Shown piece after piece: positions 46,358 through 51,794 of a stretch of 51,794 nucleotides of DNA (the stretch's first letter is position 1; the number at the start of each line of letters is the position of its first letter). This DNA is from Bacteroides sp. GTDB taxonomy: Bacteria > Bacillota > Clostridia > Lachnospirales > Lachnospiraceae. The notes beneath the pieces are model-generated. The model had not been told where the DNA came from and searched no databases. It saw only the letters and a program-made list of their open reading frames with translations. Where the stretch lies: assembly GCA_023666705.1 (NCBI GenBank), contig JAMPBO010000004.1, positions 1 to 51,794 on the forward strand, in the 5' to 3' direction. The translations under genes were made by a program, and so were the position numbers.

Positions 46358-49300
46358 TTACAGATATTTCCCTAATATGCTCAGGAACAAGTCCATATTA
46401 AGCGGCTTTGCTATATGGTCGTTCATTCCACTCTTTAATGCAGTTTCCTTATCTTCCTCCATGGCATTTGCCGTCATGGCAATAATCGGCAGAGTTTCAA
46501 CATCCTTCCTTTGCATGGCACGTATGGTCCGCGTAGCCTCATAGCCGTCCATAATCGGCATCTGAACATCCATAAGCACTGCATCGTAGTAGCCCTCCTC
46601 GGATCTGCCCACCATATCCACCGCATCGGTGCCGTCAGGTGCAGTCTCCACAACAAAACCGCTCTCTTCAAGAATAAACTCAGCAATCTCACGATTGAGT
46701 TCAATATCCTCAACCAGCAAAATACGCTTGCCCCCAAAATCAACTTTCGTCCATGGAGCACGTTCTTCCTTCTCAGCCAAATTGTTGGCTGACAACAAAA
46801 CTGTCTTCAAGTCTGACATAAACAACGGCTTCGCACAAAAAGCGGTAACACCTGCCCGCATTGCTTCTTCCTCAATATCAGTCCAATCGTACGCCGTCAG
46901 GATAATAATCGGTATATCAGAACCGACAGCCGCACGAATACGTCTGGTAGTCTCAATACCGCTCATTTCAGGCATCTGCCAGTCTATAATATATGTGTGG
47001 TAGGAATCGCCCTCATTGTGGGCACTTTTTGCCCTGTGAACTGCTTCCCTGCCTGAGACAGTCCACTCCGAACGCATTCCAATCTGCTTGAGCATCTTTG
47101 TAATACTCTCACAGCTGTCACAGTCGTCGTCCACCACAAGAGCACGCAATCCCTCAAGCTCTTTGATTTCGGATGCATTCTTCTCCATATCCTGAAGCTT
47201 TAAGCTAAGCTCTACCCTAAATTCACTTCCCTTACCCTTATCACTCTGGACAGTAATGGTACCGCCCATCATTTCTACGATATTTTTCGTGATAGCCATG
47301 CCAAGACCTGTTCCCTCAATGCCTGACTTGGTCGTGCTGTCTTCCCTCTCGAACGGCTCAAATATATGCTCTACAAAATTCTGTGTCATGCCAATACCGT
47401 TATCCTTGACTGTAAATACAAAATCTCCATAGCCACGATGGAAGGTAGTCTGCTGCTGAATACGGAAATGTATCGTTCCACCTGCAGGTGTATATTTTAC
47501 GGCATTGCTAAGTAAATTTACAAAAATCTGACTCAGTTTAAGCGAATCCGCAATGATATCTTCATTTGCAACATCAAAGGTATCAATAAACAACTCCAAC
47601 TGCTTTGCCTTCACCTGTGGTTGGATGATATTAACCAAATTGTGCGTCAACTCGGAAATGTTACATTCCTGCTCCTTAATCTGAAGCTTTCCGCTCTCAA
47701 TACGGCTCATATCAAGAATATCATTGATCAGGCTGAGCAGGTGGTTGCTGGACGAAAGTACTTTTTGCAGGCAATCCTGTACCTGTGACTTGTTATCTAT
47801 ATGGCTGACTGCAATGGTTGTAAAGCCAATAATAGCATTCATCGGAGTACGGATATCGTGGGACATATTGGACAAGAACGTCGTCTTTGCACTGTTTGCA
47901 TGCTGTGCCTGCATCAGGGCATCCTGAAGTGCCTGTGTCTGCTCCCTCTGCTTTTTCACCTGTGCTGTAATATCCCTCGACACTACCATTACCATAATGT
48001 CCTCTGTCTGTTCATCCCTTGTCATAATAAATGACTGGCGAACGCACATTGACACTCCATCAGGTATTCCGCCCCAGTAATCCACTGTTACCTCAGCCTC
48101 TCCCTTTTCAAAGCGTTGCTTAAGATTTTCAATATTTACAACCTCTTCGTATTCCTCTATGGATTCCTGCAAAACATATTCCTTCCACTTTTCAAAACAC
48201 TCCGATGCAGAACATGGTGCAGACAAACCTGTTTTTTCCAGCAAAGAAACCTGTACTCCGTCAACTGTGCGGACAATATCCTGTTCAATCAAATTCCGTG
48301 TAAGGTTAAACTCAAAAGTATTGAAAGCGGCGGAGGTAATAGCAATACGATACTGACGTTCCTTGCGGTTTGCCTTATTTATAACCTCCTGTACCTTAAG
48401 CTCTTTCTCCTTTAATGCGGTAACATCCTGCCTCATGAAGAGAAGCTTACCTGCCCTGCCTTCCTTATGTTCCAGACAAACGATGTTGATATGCTCCCAT
48501 GCTCTCTTACCATTTTTCCGGGACTTTATTTCATATTGAAGCGTGCCACCGTTACCCATCTCCTCAGCGATTATATCCTGCTCAAGCTGCTCCTTAAACC
48601 TTTGCTGTTCTTCTTCATCCTCAAACAATGCACACAGATAATGGACAAAATCCTCATAAGAACCACTTACTGCCAGATTATCCTGCTCTGGTGCCGTTCC
48701 TGCCAGATACTGGTATGTATTTTCCTCTAAATCCACCATAGTAAAACGGGCAAACAACGTGCTTACACCATCGATAATGTATCCCATCTCCCGGTTTTTC
48801 TTCTCCAACTGCTTGTGTGTTTTTCGGTTGTGGAAAATCAAAATAACAATATAAATAACAAACAGTGCAATCAAAATAACCTGCAAAACCATTCCGATAT
48901 GATTGGCTTCCTTCACCATCCTCTGCGTTACACTCTTTGGAAATGCCTGGACCAGAATATAATCTGTATTTGGAACATGCAGGGCACACAAATTGTCCGT
49001 CAGACTCCCTGTACTGCAAATGAAGCCTTTCTCATCAATCTCACCCCGAAACACTTTCCAAACTTTTTCAGCTGTCTCGGCATCAATCACGCCTGTATCA
49101 CGCAAAACATCAGGTAGTAATTTGTCCTGTTTCCTGCCATCGGACGTGGCAATCACATCTCCCTCACGGGTACACAAATAAACGTCCGCTGCCTCTCCAA
49201 AATAATTGGTTTTCAATATTTCCTGAAGATAATCTTCCGCAAGGTAAAGTCCGAGCAGCACTCCAATCACCTCATTCTCTTCCCATACCGGTGCGTAAAA

Positions 49301-49747
49301 AACCATGGTTGTCCTTCCCGTAATTCTCGAGTTCAATACCATGGAACAGCCACTCTCTCCCTGCATTCCAGCCTCAAAATAATCCCTGTCCGCACTATCA
49401 GACTTTGTTCCGTCCGAAGTCAAATTGACTCCCTCCGTATTAACATATCGTATGGAGTCAAAATCCACATTACCTTCCAGTTCTTTCAGCATACCTGCAT
49501 CAATATCAGGTGTATCCGTTCCCACACTCAGAAAATACGCATAATTCCGCACACGCCTTTGGGCATTGGCGAACTCATTGCTAATACCCATTGTTGTCTG
49601 GCGGGCAGAATCCATTGCATAATTTAAATTCCGTTCTTCTATCTGTTTCCTGTTTGAAACGGTATACCATCTGAATAACAGAATAACTGCTATCAATAAA
49701 ATAAATATGTATAATACATTTTTTCCTGTTTTCCTTGTCGTACTCAT
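46358..49747 (-). CDS. Hybrid sensor histidine kinase: Cache, PAS-like, HisKA, HATPase, two receivers
   Basis: 1129 residues. Helix 1 (11-28), an extracellular double-Cache domain (31-280; RDYFEAGMQG at 121-130 and ITGRTTMVFYAPV are typical), helix 2 (284-306), then two PAS-like segments (about 325-445 and 465-595), HisKA with H630 (NMSHDIRTPMNAIIGF), HATPase with N-box NLLSNAVKYT (744-753), DNGIGM and GTGLGMAI, receiver 1 with D922 (IIDWQMPEMSG) and receiver 2 with D1060 (LMDVQMPIMDG). No HPt domain, so an external phosphotransfer protein is needed. AGGAG precedes the ATG. Ligand unknown; a small molecule is likely from the Cache domain. Confidence 0.93.
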   Translation of the reverse strand: MSTTRKTGKNVLYIFILLIAVILLFRWYTVSNRKQIEERNLNYAMDSARQTTMGISNEFANAQRRVRNYAYFLSVGTDTPDIDAGMLKELEGNVDFDSIRYVNTEGVNLTSDGTKSDSADRDYFEAGMQGESGCSMVLNSRITGRTTMVFYAPVWEENEVIGVLLGLYLAEDYLQEILKTNYFGEAADVYLCTREGDVIATSDGRKQDKLLPDVLRDTGVIDAETAEKVWKVFRGEIDEKGFICSTGSLTDNLCALHVPNTDYILVQAFPKSVTQRMVKEANHIGMVLQVILIALFVIYIVILIFHNRKTHKQLEKKNREMGYIIDGVSTLFARFTMVDLEENTYQYLAGTAPEQDNLAVSGSYEDFVHYLCALFEDEEEQQRFKEQLEQDIIAEEMGNGGTLQYEIKSRKNGKRAWEHINIVCLEHKEGRAGKLLFMRQDVTALKEKELKVQEVINKANRKERQYRIAITSAAFNTFEFNLTRNLIEQDIVRTVDGVQVSLLEKTGLSAPCSASECFEKWKEYVLQESIEEYEEVVNIENLKQRFEKGEAEVTVDYWGGIPDGVSMCVRQSFIMTRDEQTEDIMVMVVSRDITAQVKKQREQTQALQDALMQAQHANSAKTTFLSNMSHDIRTPMNAIIGFTTIAVSHIDNKSQVQDCLQKVLSSSNHLLSLINDILDMSRIESGKLQIKEQECNISELTHNLVNIIQPQVKAKQLELFIDTFDVANEDIIADSLKLSQIFVNLLSNAVKYTPAGGTIHFRIQQQTTFHRGYGDFVFTVKDNGIGMTQNFVEHIFEPFEREDSTTKSGIEGTGLGMAITKNIVEMMGGTITVQSDKGKGSEFRVELSLKLQDMEKNASEIKELEGLRALVVDDDCDSCESITKMLKQIGMRSEWTVSGREAVHRAKSAHNEGDSYHTYIIDWQMPEMSGIETTRRIRAAVGSDIPIIILTAYDWTDIEEEAMRAGVTAFCAKPLFMSDLKTVLLSANNLAEKEERAPWTKVDFGGKRILLVEDIELNREIAEFILEESGFVVETAPDGTDAVDMVGRSEEGYYDAVLMDVQMPIMDGYEATRTIRAMQRKDVETLPIIAMTANAMEEDKETALKSGMNDHIAKPLNMDLFLSILGKYL

Positions 49748-50101: not shown

Positions 50102-51529
50102 TTAATTTGCCGCCGACATCATTCTTGCCAAATCTTCCCGCAGGTCACTCCTGCCACCCGAAATAATCACGGCGTTTTTCATTTTATCAATTCCGTTCTT
50201 TATATCTCCCAGCCTGTAAAGTGCAATGGCATATCCGCTTAATGCATCTGCATTTTCTTTATCAATTTCCAACGCTTTTGCATTATCCTCCTTGCAGATT
50301 TCATAGTTGCCACACATATATTCCGCATACGCTTTGACAACCAGTGCCTTTTCATTTTTAGGGTCAAGCTCCAGCAAACGCTCTAAAATGATTGCTGCTT
50401 CCTGATAAATACCCAGCTTGATTAATCCTTCAGCTTTTTCATACAACCCCTTTTTGTCCTTGATACACTGCTGTTTTTCCTTCATTTCCTTAAGCTTCAG
50501 GTTATATGCACAGTACTGGTTTTCAGAATGGATGCTTCCATTCATGGTAAGCCTTGTATTTGGGCATCCACCCAGACATTTGCTGCCATAGACACAGGTT
50601 TTACAGTCACCATCCAAATCCGCTTTTTTGAATTTTCTTCGCCATGCAAAAGCATCTTCATTTTCCCAGATTTCCTTAAGTGAGCTTTCCCTTATTGACT
50701 TCTTTTCGATAAATTCATCCTCGCGGATGGATGTACAGCCAAGAATTTTTCCATCATGCAAAATTCCAAAGCCCCTGATTCCCGCATTACATCCGTCCCA
50801 TAATGATATCCTGTCAGTTTCATAGGATATCATTTTAATTTCCAATTCTTTTTGGGTGTAATAACCAATACAATCCGCAGGATAGATTTTGATTCTGCCT
50901 TCCTTTGCCGTTTCGTAGCAGAAATTTATAATATCTACAACCTTCTCAGGTGCAAGAAGCCAGTCAGGCTTTTCCTTCATATTCCCCATCGGAAGCCCCA
51001 ACTGTACCTGCCATGTCTGCACTCCCATACGAATCAGCTCTTCCTTTAATTCACCAAGAATACCCATATTCTTGTTTGTAATGGTAGTAACCACGCCGCT
51101 TTTGATTCCAAGCTCTTTCATATATTGAAAGCCTCTTCTGGCGTTGTCAAAAGCACCTGCCTTACGGATTTCATCATGTATTTCTTTTGTTCCGTCAATG
51201 CTGATTGCAAGCGTAGCAATTCCATTTTCCTTTAATTGCTCTGCCATGGTCCTATCAAGCAGTAATCCATTGGTAATCATGTTGACAGCAACTCCCCTGT
51301 CAGACAGTCTTTTTACAATTTGGGTAATATCCTTTCTTGTCAAAGGCTCGCCGCCTGACAATGTAACCCATCTGAGACCTAAGTCTGCAATCTGGTCACA
51401 TAAATCCAAAGCTTCTGCCGTGGTTAATTCACCCTCCAAAGGCTCTGCACAGGATGAACCACAGTGTCCGCACCGCATATTACAACCCATGGTTACTTCC
51501 CATACACAGGTAATTGGCTGATATTTCAT
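50102..51529 (-). CDS. Radical SAM/SPASM peptide-maturase-like enzyme with TPR tail
   Basis: 475 residues. Radical SAM core: C16-x3-C20-x2-C23 in GCNMRCGHC, GGEP (59-62), ISIDG (109-113). A SPASM domain follows with cysteines 247, 265, 309, 312, 318, 322 and 340 (CKTCVYGSKCLGGCPN), which bind auxiliary [4Fe-4S] clusters. Residues about 360-460 are tetratricopeptide repeats (GIYQEAAIILERLLELDPKN, ADALSGYAIALYRLG), probably for peptide or partner binding. Start at 51529 because GGAGG lies 7 nt upstream. The gene just upstream encodes a Cys-containing repeat peptide, so I infer it modifies that peptide. Confidence 0.9.
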   Translation of the reverse strand: MKYQPITCVWEVTMGCNMRCGHCGSSCAEPLEGELTTAEALDLCDQIADLGLRWVTLSGGEPLTRKDITQIVKRLSDRGVAVNMITNGLLLDRTMAEQLKENGIATLAISIDGTKEIHDEIRKAGAFDNARRGFQYMKELGIKSGVVTTITNKNMGILGELKEELIRMGVQTWQVQLGLPMGNMKEKPDWLLAPEKVVDIINFCYETAKEGRIKIYPADCIGYYTQKELEIKMISYETDRISLWDGCNAGIRGFGILHDGKILGCTSIREDEFIEKKSIRESSLKEIWENEDAFAWRRKFKKADLDGDCKTCVYGSKCLGGCPNTRLTMNGSIHSENQYCAYNLKLKEMKEKQQCIKDKKGLYEKAEGLIKLGIYQEAAIILERLLELDPKNEKALVVKAYAEYMCGNYEICKEDNAKALEIDKENADALSGYAIALYRLGDIKNGIDKMKNAVIISGGRSDLREDLARMMSAAN

Positions 51530-51639
51530 AAGTTTCCTCCTTTTGAACATCATCCCATTCCTCATCAAGCTTCCTTCAGCACATGTTTATCCGATAAACA
51601 CTACCTTTGCTTTCCACAAATGGGTTGACTTTGTGTTCC

Positions 51640-51664
51640 GGTTGCCTTGCCAGTTGGCACAACC
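51640..51664. other. Stem-loop between peptide gene and radical SAM gene
   Basis: GGTTGTGCCA and TGGCAAGGCAACC fold with GGTTG/CAACC and GCCA/TGGC stems, three nt after the peptide stop codon. No T-run. It may protect the peptide mRNA or set the peptide:enzyme ratio. Confidence 0.4.
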
Positions 51665-51667
51665 TCA

Positions 51668-51794
51668 TTAAAGCGGAACACCATACATACGTGTTTCAAT
51701 TGGACTTCCCGTACATGGGTCACCATACTTACAGATTGCGTCCTGTACCCCACACGGATAACCATATTTAAGGTTTGCATCCTGTACCCCACAC
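51668..51794 (-). CDS. Repeat-containing Cys peptide, putative RiPP precursor, 5' end beyond window
   Basis: Frame ends at TAA (51668-51670) and is open to the right edge, giving 41 residues. It contains two tandem 13-residue units CGVQDAxxKYGxP (51755-51793: NL, Y; 51716-51754: IC, D), then a 15-residue tail starting CTGSP and ending RMYGVPL, again with YGxP. The 39-bp DNA repeats differ by codon as well as amino acid changes, supporting a coding role. It is 138 nt upstream of a radical SAM/SPASM gene on the same strand. I infer a ribosomally made peptide modified at Cys or the KYG motif. Leader and start lie outside. I do not recognise the precursor family. Confidence 0.7.
   Translation of the reverse strand, partial: CGVQDANLKYGYPCGVQDAICKYGDPCTGSPIETRMYGVPL

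Follow-up and report, generated by a model that had tools for sequence, protein, structure and literature searches.

A predicted tyramine-splicing enzyme and its candidate substrate, a repeat-tailed protein with a putative chagasin-type head

The right-hand end of the window – the 51,794-nucleotide stretch of DNA analysed here – holds the last part of a gene for a repeat protein beside a gene for a radical SAM enzyme, which raises the question of what the enzyme does to its neighbour. A sequence-only reading had described tandem 13-residue units with Cys and KYG(x)P that end in a YGVP variant, and translation bears this out: the frame finishes with RMYGVPL and two stop codons, and the window breaks off within a tandem array of 39-bp units, each encoding 13 residues. 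Exactly 100 N lie directly beyond the window (contig C26, 51795-51894), a run that looks like an assembly gap cutting the substrate gene. Past it the array resumes (39-bp period, 3.8 copies, 95% match). The gene starts at an ATG at C26:52616, the protein opens with MQKEYVALEGKVFVVELLSYMGSANYGWC, and the stretch from head to array carries further YG motifs (QDYGLP, EYGVP, AYGVP). The codons seen number 281 (240 + 41, the gap not counted) and the tail has at least 11 YG. The protein has two domains, and the repeats form its tail. The proposal of a repeat substrate beside the enzyme thus stands, and its description as a peptide does not. Extension to the right, likewise suggested by that reading, yielded more repeats and a putative I42-type head; no peptide transporter or leader peptidase was recognised by eye in the ORF lists of the pair's neighbours. 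A match of the repeats to PF21403 OTU1_UBXL (E 2.8e-4, under the cut-off) was judged to be chance.

Table 1. Features of the candidate substrate-enzyme pair (window positions).
Feature	Positions	Strand	Basis or sequence
Radical SAM/SPASM-TPR enzyme, 475 aa, ATG start, candidate splicease	50102..51529	-	Pfam, NCBIfam
Radical SAM domain, residues 11-165	51035..51499	-	Pfam PF04055, 1.7e-27
SPASM domain, residues 247-312	50594..50791	-	Pfam PF13186, 4.2e-7
TPR tail, residues 361-454	50168..50449	-	Pfam TPR_2 1.2e-7, TPR_19, TPR_17
AGGAGG, likely ribosome-binding site of enzyme gene	51536..51541	-	read from sequence
3' end of substrate gene	51668..51794	-	CGVQDANLKYGYP, CGVQDAICKYGDP (13-residue units), then CTGSPIETRMYGVPL, stop

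The adjoining gene had been read as a radical SAM protein with SPASM cysteines and TPR repeats, and this assignment held: the ORF is intact and Pfam recognises all three regions (Table 1; the limits of the TPR tail were drawn also from designed-TPR matches). The enzyme carries CxxxCxxC, and its SPASM cysteine set, CxxC-x5-CxxxC...C, extends to residue 340. Translation probably begins at the ATG at 51529, which follows AAAAGGAGGAAACTT; a TTG-started ORF (50102-51568) is 13 codons longer. The gene lies downstream of the substrate gene, 138 bases past the first stop codon, and the protein is 84-85% identical to the partner enzymes of two same-genus genomes. A gene for a hybrid sensor histidine kinase with dCache, HisKA, HATPase_c and two receiver domains (46358-49747, minus strand) also adjoins the pair in the window; it is not next to the pair in two same-genus loci.

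A single scan of genome contigs with the window enzyme recovered 47 loci, 34 of which (33 by script, with L034 added on reading its ORFs) encode a head-plus-repeat protein beside the enzyme. Among the loci are L026 of Kineothrix alysoides KNHs209, L038 of Butyrivibrio hungatei XBD2006 and L060 of Cellulosilyticum ruminicola. The substrate gene is positioned after the enzyme gene in L051, L052 and L059. The loci include three near-copies (L028 of L027, L035 of L033 and L059 of L052), and the proteins of L020 and L023 are identical to those of genomes G015 and G022. Another XYG-bearing candidate substrate was found at 10 loci (L046-L050, L053, L055-L057, L060), so that 44 of 47 have one near the enzyme; none was seen at L032 and L065, where the start of the enzyme is at or near a contig end, or at L061, a true miss. 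The proposed pairing of a repeat-bearing substrate with a SPASM-TPR enzyme is thus kept elsewhere. The contrary outcomes that the sequence-only reading had named were looked for and did not occur: the pair is conserved, and an origin of the repeats as the end of a large unrelated protein is ruled out by the joint conservation of head and tail.

The substrate and enzyme genes co-occur in the same three of 61 related genomes (enzyme at E <= 1e-80), and the substrate is patchy within the genus (3 of 37 genomes). Four Fibrobacter-labelled rows, with labels that come from metagenomes, cluster with L033 (Butyrivibrio) and L062 in the enzyme tree (100/100). A search in E. coli gave no match.

The other candidate substrates vary in architecture. 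Short peptides with LYGIP, LYGAP, MYGVP or KYGVAP are found at L053, L055-L057 and L060; the L060 peptide has a ComC-type leader according to Pfam, and a C39-peptidase ABC transporter is encoded upstream of its enzyme. Spliceotide pathways may use peptidase-ABC transporters, according to the accessible part of PMC10885120. The L048 and L049 peptides have DYG/HYG, that is, YG without xP. At L046 and L047 Pfam finds SLH domains and at L050 a dockerin, in substrates with a PYGFP motif. These SLH and dockerin proteins open, as judged by eye, with signal-peptide-like stretches, which suggests that some products may be exported; no signal peptide was noticed by eye in the head-plus-tail substrate.

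To describe the tail motif we counted 33 sequences, comprising 31 loci (the 34 minus near-copies L028, L035 and L059) and the two gap sides of the window gene counted apart. These tails contain 236 YGxP, against 5.3 expected when each tail is shuffled, and a chance origin of the repeats is excluded. Total YG come to 326, from two in a tail (L051) to 16 (L040). At the 246 Y[GAS]xP sites Tyr is preceded by Lys in 191 and followed by Gly in 236, Ala in nine and Ser in one. Among other ORFs of at least 80 residues in the same loci, 1273 of 1295 lack YGxP, in a set that still includes the non-I42 substrates. The element that the substrates have in common is Tyr-Gly, usually as YGxP, rather than Cys.

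Some tails depart from this pattern or add to it. The L051 substrate (L051:7512-8228), interrupted by a long run of N, has repeats NIYAYPFSHNNAAHT with Tyr-Ala replacing Tyr-Gly, and its NIYAYP array supplies three of the ten sites with Ala or Ser after Tyr. A second recurring motif, approximately [EDQNT]PF[ILF], was noticed by eye in L034:175-1098 (QPFLRNSCAP-like units), L064:4988-5839 and L066:5299-5985 (EPFITKYG), with similar motifs in L027, L029, L030 and L043-L045.

Structure prediction places the first ~100 residues of the substrate in a putative family of chagasin fold, that of the I42 cysteine-protease inhibitors: the predicted structure of a close relative's head has the I42 beta-sandwich. 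PF09394 matched six of 27 heads scanned (34 in all) at E<=1, with a best value of 3.1e-9, and the whole L058 protein scored above its cut-off (34.8 bits vs 27.2); the window genome's own substrate had no PF09394 match. The inhibitory loop motifs of chagasin are kept only in part. Compared with the sequences in the PDB, the head profile matched saxiphilin stretches only (best E 0.033). An order-wide search with a three-row head alignment, a model too narrow for measuring prevalence, matched two of 392 genomes, the window's own among them.

The nearest NCBIfam model to the window enzyme is TIGR04103 (nif11-class peptide rSAM maturase 3), which we take to be the same family as IPR026482; the score, 222.5 bits, does not reach the equivalog cut-off of 725. 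TIGR03913 (205.9), TIGR04133 (191.4) and TIGR04545 AhbD (188.6) follow, all far under their cut-offs. Eight family or close-kin enzymes were scanned (window, L021, L050, L057, L058, L060, L061 and Agathobacter L068); they score 200-235 bits on TIGR04103, which is the top model for seven, and in L060 TIGR03913 leads it by 1.3 bits. Positive controls gave 853 bits (Nostoc) and 428-461 bits (Azospirillum, Aureibacter, Tropicibacter), and seven radical SAM enzymes of other types, namely PqqE, two MftC and TIGR04133, TIGR04347, TIGR04053 and NirJ2-like ones, gave 82-107. The window enzyme is 33% identical to the Nostoc TIGR04103 member over 70% of its length. Excerpts of PMC11002830 place PlpX in IPR026482.

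Two further motifs accompany this kinship. WQxQ..MGN occurs in 43 of 47 family rows, the exceptions being L029, L045 and two rows that are short or broken, L063 and L065, and in the window, Agathobacter, Nostoc TIGR04103, Aureibacter and Azospirillum enzymes; it occurs in none of eight other radical SAM enzymes. [IM]GYY is found in 38 of 47 rows; of the rows that lack it, seven have LGYY, VGYY, IGYF or MGYF in its place. Neither motif is diagnostic, because the Azospirillum enzyme lacks [IM]GYY and the Tropicibacter enzyme lacks both, yet scores 428-431 bits on two splicease/GDL models. In a tree built on 49 of the 61 rows, from which three short rows and nine near-copies or close rows were omitted, one set (95/94) unites the family, Agathobacter, a Nostoc/GDL/Tropicibacter group (100/99) and two long-branched TIGR04133-type rows; its internal branching is unresolved near the group's base. 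PqqE, both MftC, TIGR04347 and TIGR04053 fall outside. A tblastn search of the loci with one 71-residue Nostoc query found no PlpY-like gene at E<=1.

Building on what is directly supported (the gene structure, the predicted fold of a relative's head, the conservation of pair and motif, and the nearest enzyme model), we infer that the pair is probably a tyramine-splicing, spliceotide-like modification system. In the predicted reaction, which draws on enzyme kinship and substrate motif, the enzyme would excise tyramine from each XYG, mostly Lys-Tyr-Gly, to leave an α-keto-β-amino residue. Splicing would take place at many sites on a chagasin/I42-fold scaffold with an XYGxP tail, and each site would lose about 135 Da (C8H9NO), where the sequence-only reading had looked to -2 Da. 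Substrate recognition has probably moved from a leader and PlpY to the head and/or the TPR tail. The mature protein would bear a row of alpha-ketoamides on its inhibitor-fold head, and these are expected to be Lys-type because X is Lys at most sites.

We favour splicing over sactipeptide, ranthipeptide and cyclophane chemistry because Tyr-Gly is nearly constant, because the best model is that of the PlpX class, with whose Nostoc member the enzyme shares WQxQ..MGN, because XYG is kept on unlike scaffolds beside the enzyme, and because the Nostoc precursor, which ends SIALYGLPPELF, contains LYGLP. LYGLP and GYGLP are contained in PlpXY splice tags (PMC10533398, in the part available), and the parts available of PMC10373908 and PMC11117315 report that several XYG sites of one precursor can be spliced and that the products inhibit proteases. 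Several observations count against splicing. The enzyme falls far short of the TIGR04103 cut-off, with TIGR03913, TIGR04133 and AhbD scoring not much lower, and has low identity to the Nostoc member; no PlpY-like gene turned up with the one query; the Tropicibacter enzyme lacks both motifs; the tree groups two TIGR04133-type rows with the family; and neither L061 nor the Agathobacter locus shows an XYG substrate. Ala or Ser follows Tyr at 10 of 246 Y[GAS]xP sites, outside the published XYG rule, the YG of L048 and L049 has no xP, and Cys comes after most sites, which splicing leaves unexplained.

The Cys residues are what a thioether reading would explain, in which the SPASM enzyme would join the first Cys of most units to a residue close by and so form one ring per unit. 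Loci of the sactipeptide/ranthipeptide class typically have SPASM enzymes next to Cys-rich repeats, Cys stands directly after the motif (position +4) at 170 of 246 sites, and all 33 tails have at least one. Yet Cys and Tyr alternate at one position in G015/L020 (CSMQ/YSMQ), YGxPC is absent from L037, L051 and L058, and the L060 substrate has no Cys in the sequence read; models of thioether enzymes also score low on the window enzyme (StsB 132.9 of 625 bits, PapB 76.1 of 340). We regard thioether formation here as unlikely, and rejected it as the general chemistry because a Cys donor is not present in every unit. The sequence-only reading had put forward sactipeptides, ranthipeptides or cyclophanes; as a general interpretation this gives way before the inconstant Cys, the nearly constant Tyr-Gly and a splicease model as best match.

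Chemistry centred on Tyr, such as a three-residue cyclophane or a C-C crosslink at Y-G-[YFLV], would instead make use of the constant Tyr and of a +2 residue that is Tyr at 191 and Phe at 27 of 246 sites, and SPASM enzymes do make such links. However, L, V, I and A are seen at +2 as well, and Gly after Tyr is nearly constant, as in spliced motifs; we consider such a crosslink improbable. That the tail is unmodified, as part of a repetitive adhesive or structural protein, while the enzyme acts elsewhere seems very improbable: KYGYP does also occur in the visible part of a mussel foot-protein paper, but the pair stays together in 34 of 47 loci, other XYG proteins substitute in 10 more, and both genes are in the same three of 61 genomes.

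The wider neighbourhood was compared across 44 loci, three near-copies left out. Upstream on the opposite strand we observed a GHKL kinase (13 loci), a LytTR regulator (12) and a possible C92-type, permuted papain-fold protein (10), as at L025:2128-5156 and L026:1858-4946, and similarly at L027, L029, L030, L036, L043-L045, L054, L063, L064 and L066. In the possible C92-type protein His and Cys are constant; Pfam C92 matched one of three scanned, under the cut-off (E 4.5e-4), and the structure model has a pLDDT of 55.5. This protein was not found in the window's genome, and the set is not adjacent to the window's pair. The placement of a papain-like protein beside an I42-fold protein at some loci is suggestive.

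Other arrangements were seen singly. A protein with Schlafen AlbA_2 and a RecG-like C-terminal domain is encoded between tuf and the substrate gene at L006:3745-5292 (minus strand). On a Tropicibacter oceani plasmid (L079:2189-5880), a GDL/PlpX-related radical SAM enzyme lies by annotated trypsin-like and M23 peptidases. In Agathobacter rectalis NZ_CP143948.1, labelled "plasmid", rpoC-rpsL-rpsG-fusA-tuf precedes an enzyme that is of the same clade but has no TPR, together with an MFS transporter (L068:5986-8417). This site is close to the position after tuf that the window's pair occupies; no XYG substrate was seen at the locus.

Alpha-ketoamides trap serine and cysteine proteases, and the inhibitor fold and such trapping agree in direction, towards protease inhibition. 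We tentatively consider a further reading, which we hold possible while leaning against it: a multi-warhead protease inhibitor the size of a protein, produced by the ribosome and a PlpY-free, TPR-tailed splicease, the pair being mobile between bacteria and the enzyme's kin acting on SLH and dockerin surface proteins. A chagasin-fold head would carry a tail with up to 16 Tyr-Gly sites, each Lys-Tyr-Gly becoming a Lys-type alpha-ketoamide. If the splicing interpretation is right, Lachnospiraceae would make folded proteins with many reactive beta-amino residues per chain, one enzyme family would modify scaffolds that range from an inhibitor fold to SLH and dockerin proteins, a splicing tool that acts on a Lys-bearing motif and may not need PlpY would be at hand, and the idea of spliced proteins as protease inhibitors could be put to a direct test.

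The mining study behind the predicted splicease systems is reportedly that of Scott 2022 (Chem). The accessible part of PMC10533398 counts 27 other characterised and 939 predicted systems, and the present enzyme and substrate family may already be among the latter. Literature on spliceases and spliceotides, chagasin and SPASM-TPR proteins, a body that did not cover the key mining study, yielded no I42-fold substrate or TPR-tailed splicease. YGVP with radical SAM/SPASM and chagasin in the RiPP literature were absent among the matches listed, chagasin together with radical SAM gave no literature match, and the available part of PMC10352776 does not describe this head-plus-tail, splicease-like system.

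Set beside known systems, the pair shares features with several. Sactipeptide and ranthipeptide loci likewise have a SPASM enzyme adjoining Cys-bearing repeats; here, however, Cys is not constant and the enzyme is far under the cut-offs of their models. Compared with chagasin inhibitors (I42, PF09394), the substrate has a long XYG tail added to the head. The GDL-motif (DUF1843) maturase model TIGR03913 is second-best or best for most enzymes scanned, two members examined have WQxQ..MGN, and some of the peptides have YG near the N-terminus, whereas that system has short DUF1843 peptides and no TPR in the two enzyme tails read. PlpX/PlpY of Pleurocapsa offers a SPASM radical SAM enzyme whose class supplies the best-scoring model, an XYGxP substrate motif with several sites per substrate, and WQxQ..MGN in common with the Nostoc class member. 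In contrast to it, the window enzyme is TPR-tailed and far under the model cut-off, X is mostly Lys, and where PlpX/PlpY substrates have a short core behind a Nif11 or nitrile-hydratase-like leader, the substrate here has an I42-type domain with up to 16 YG in its tail.
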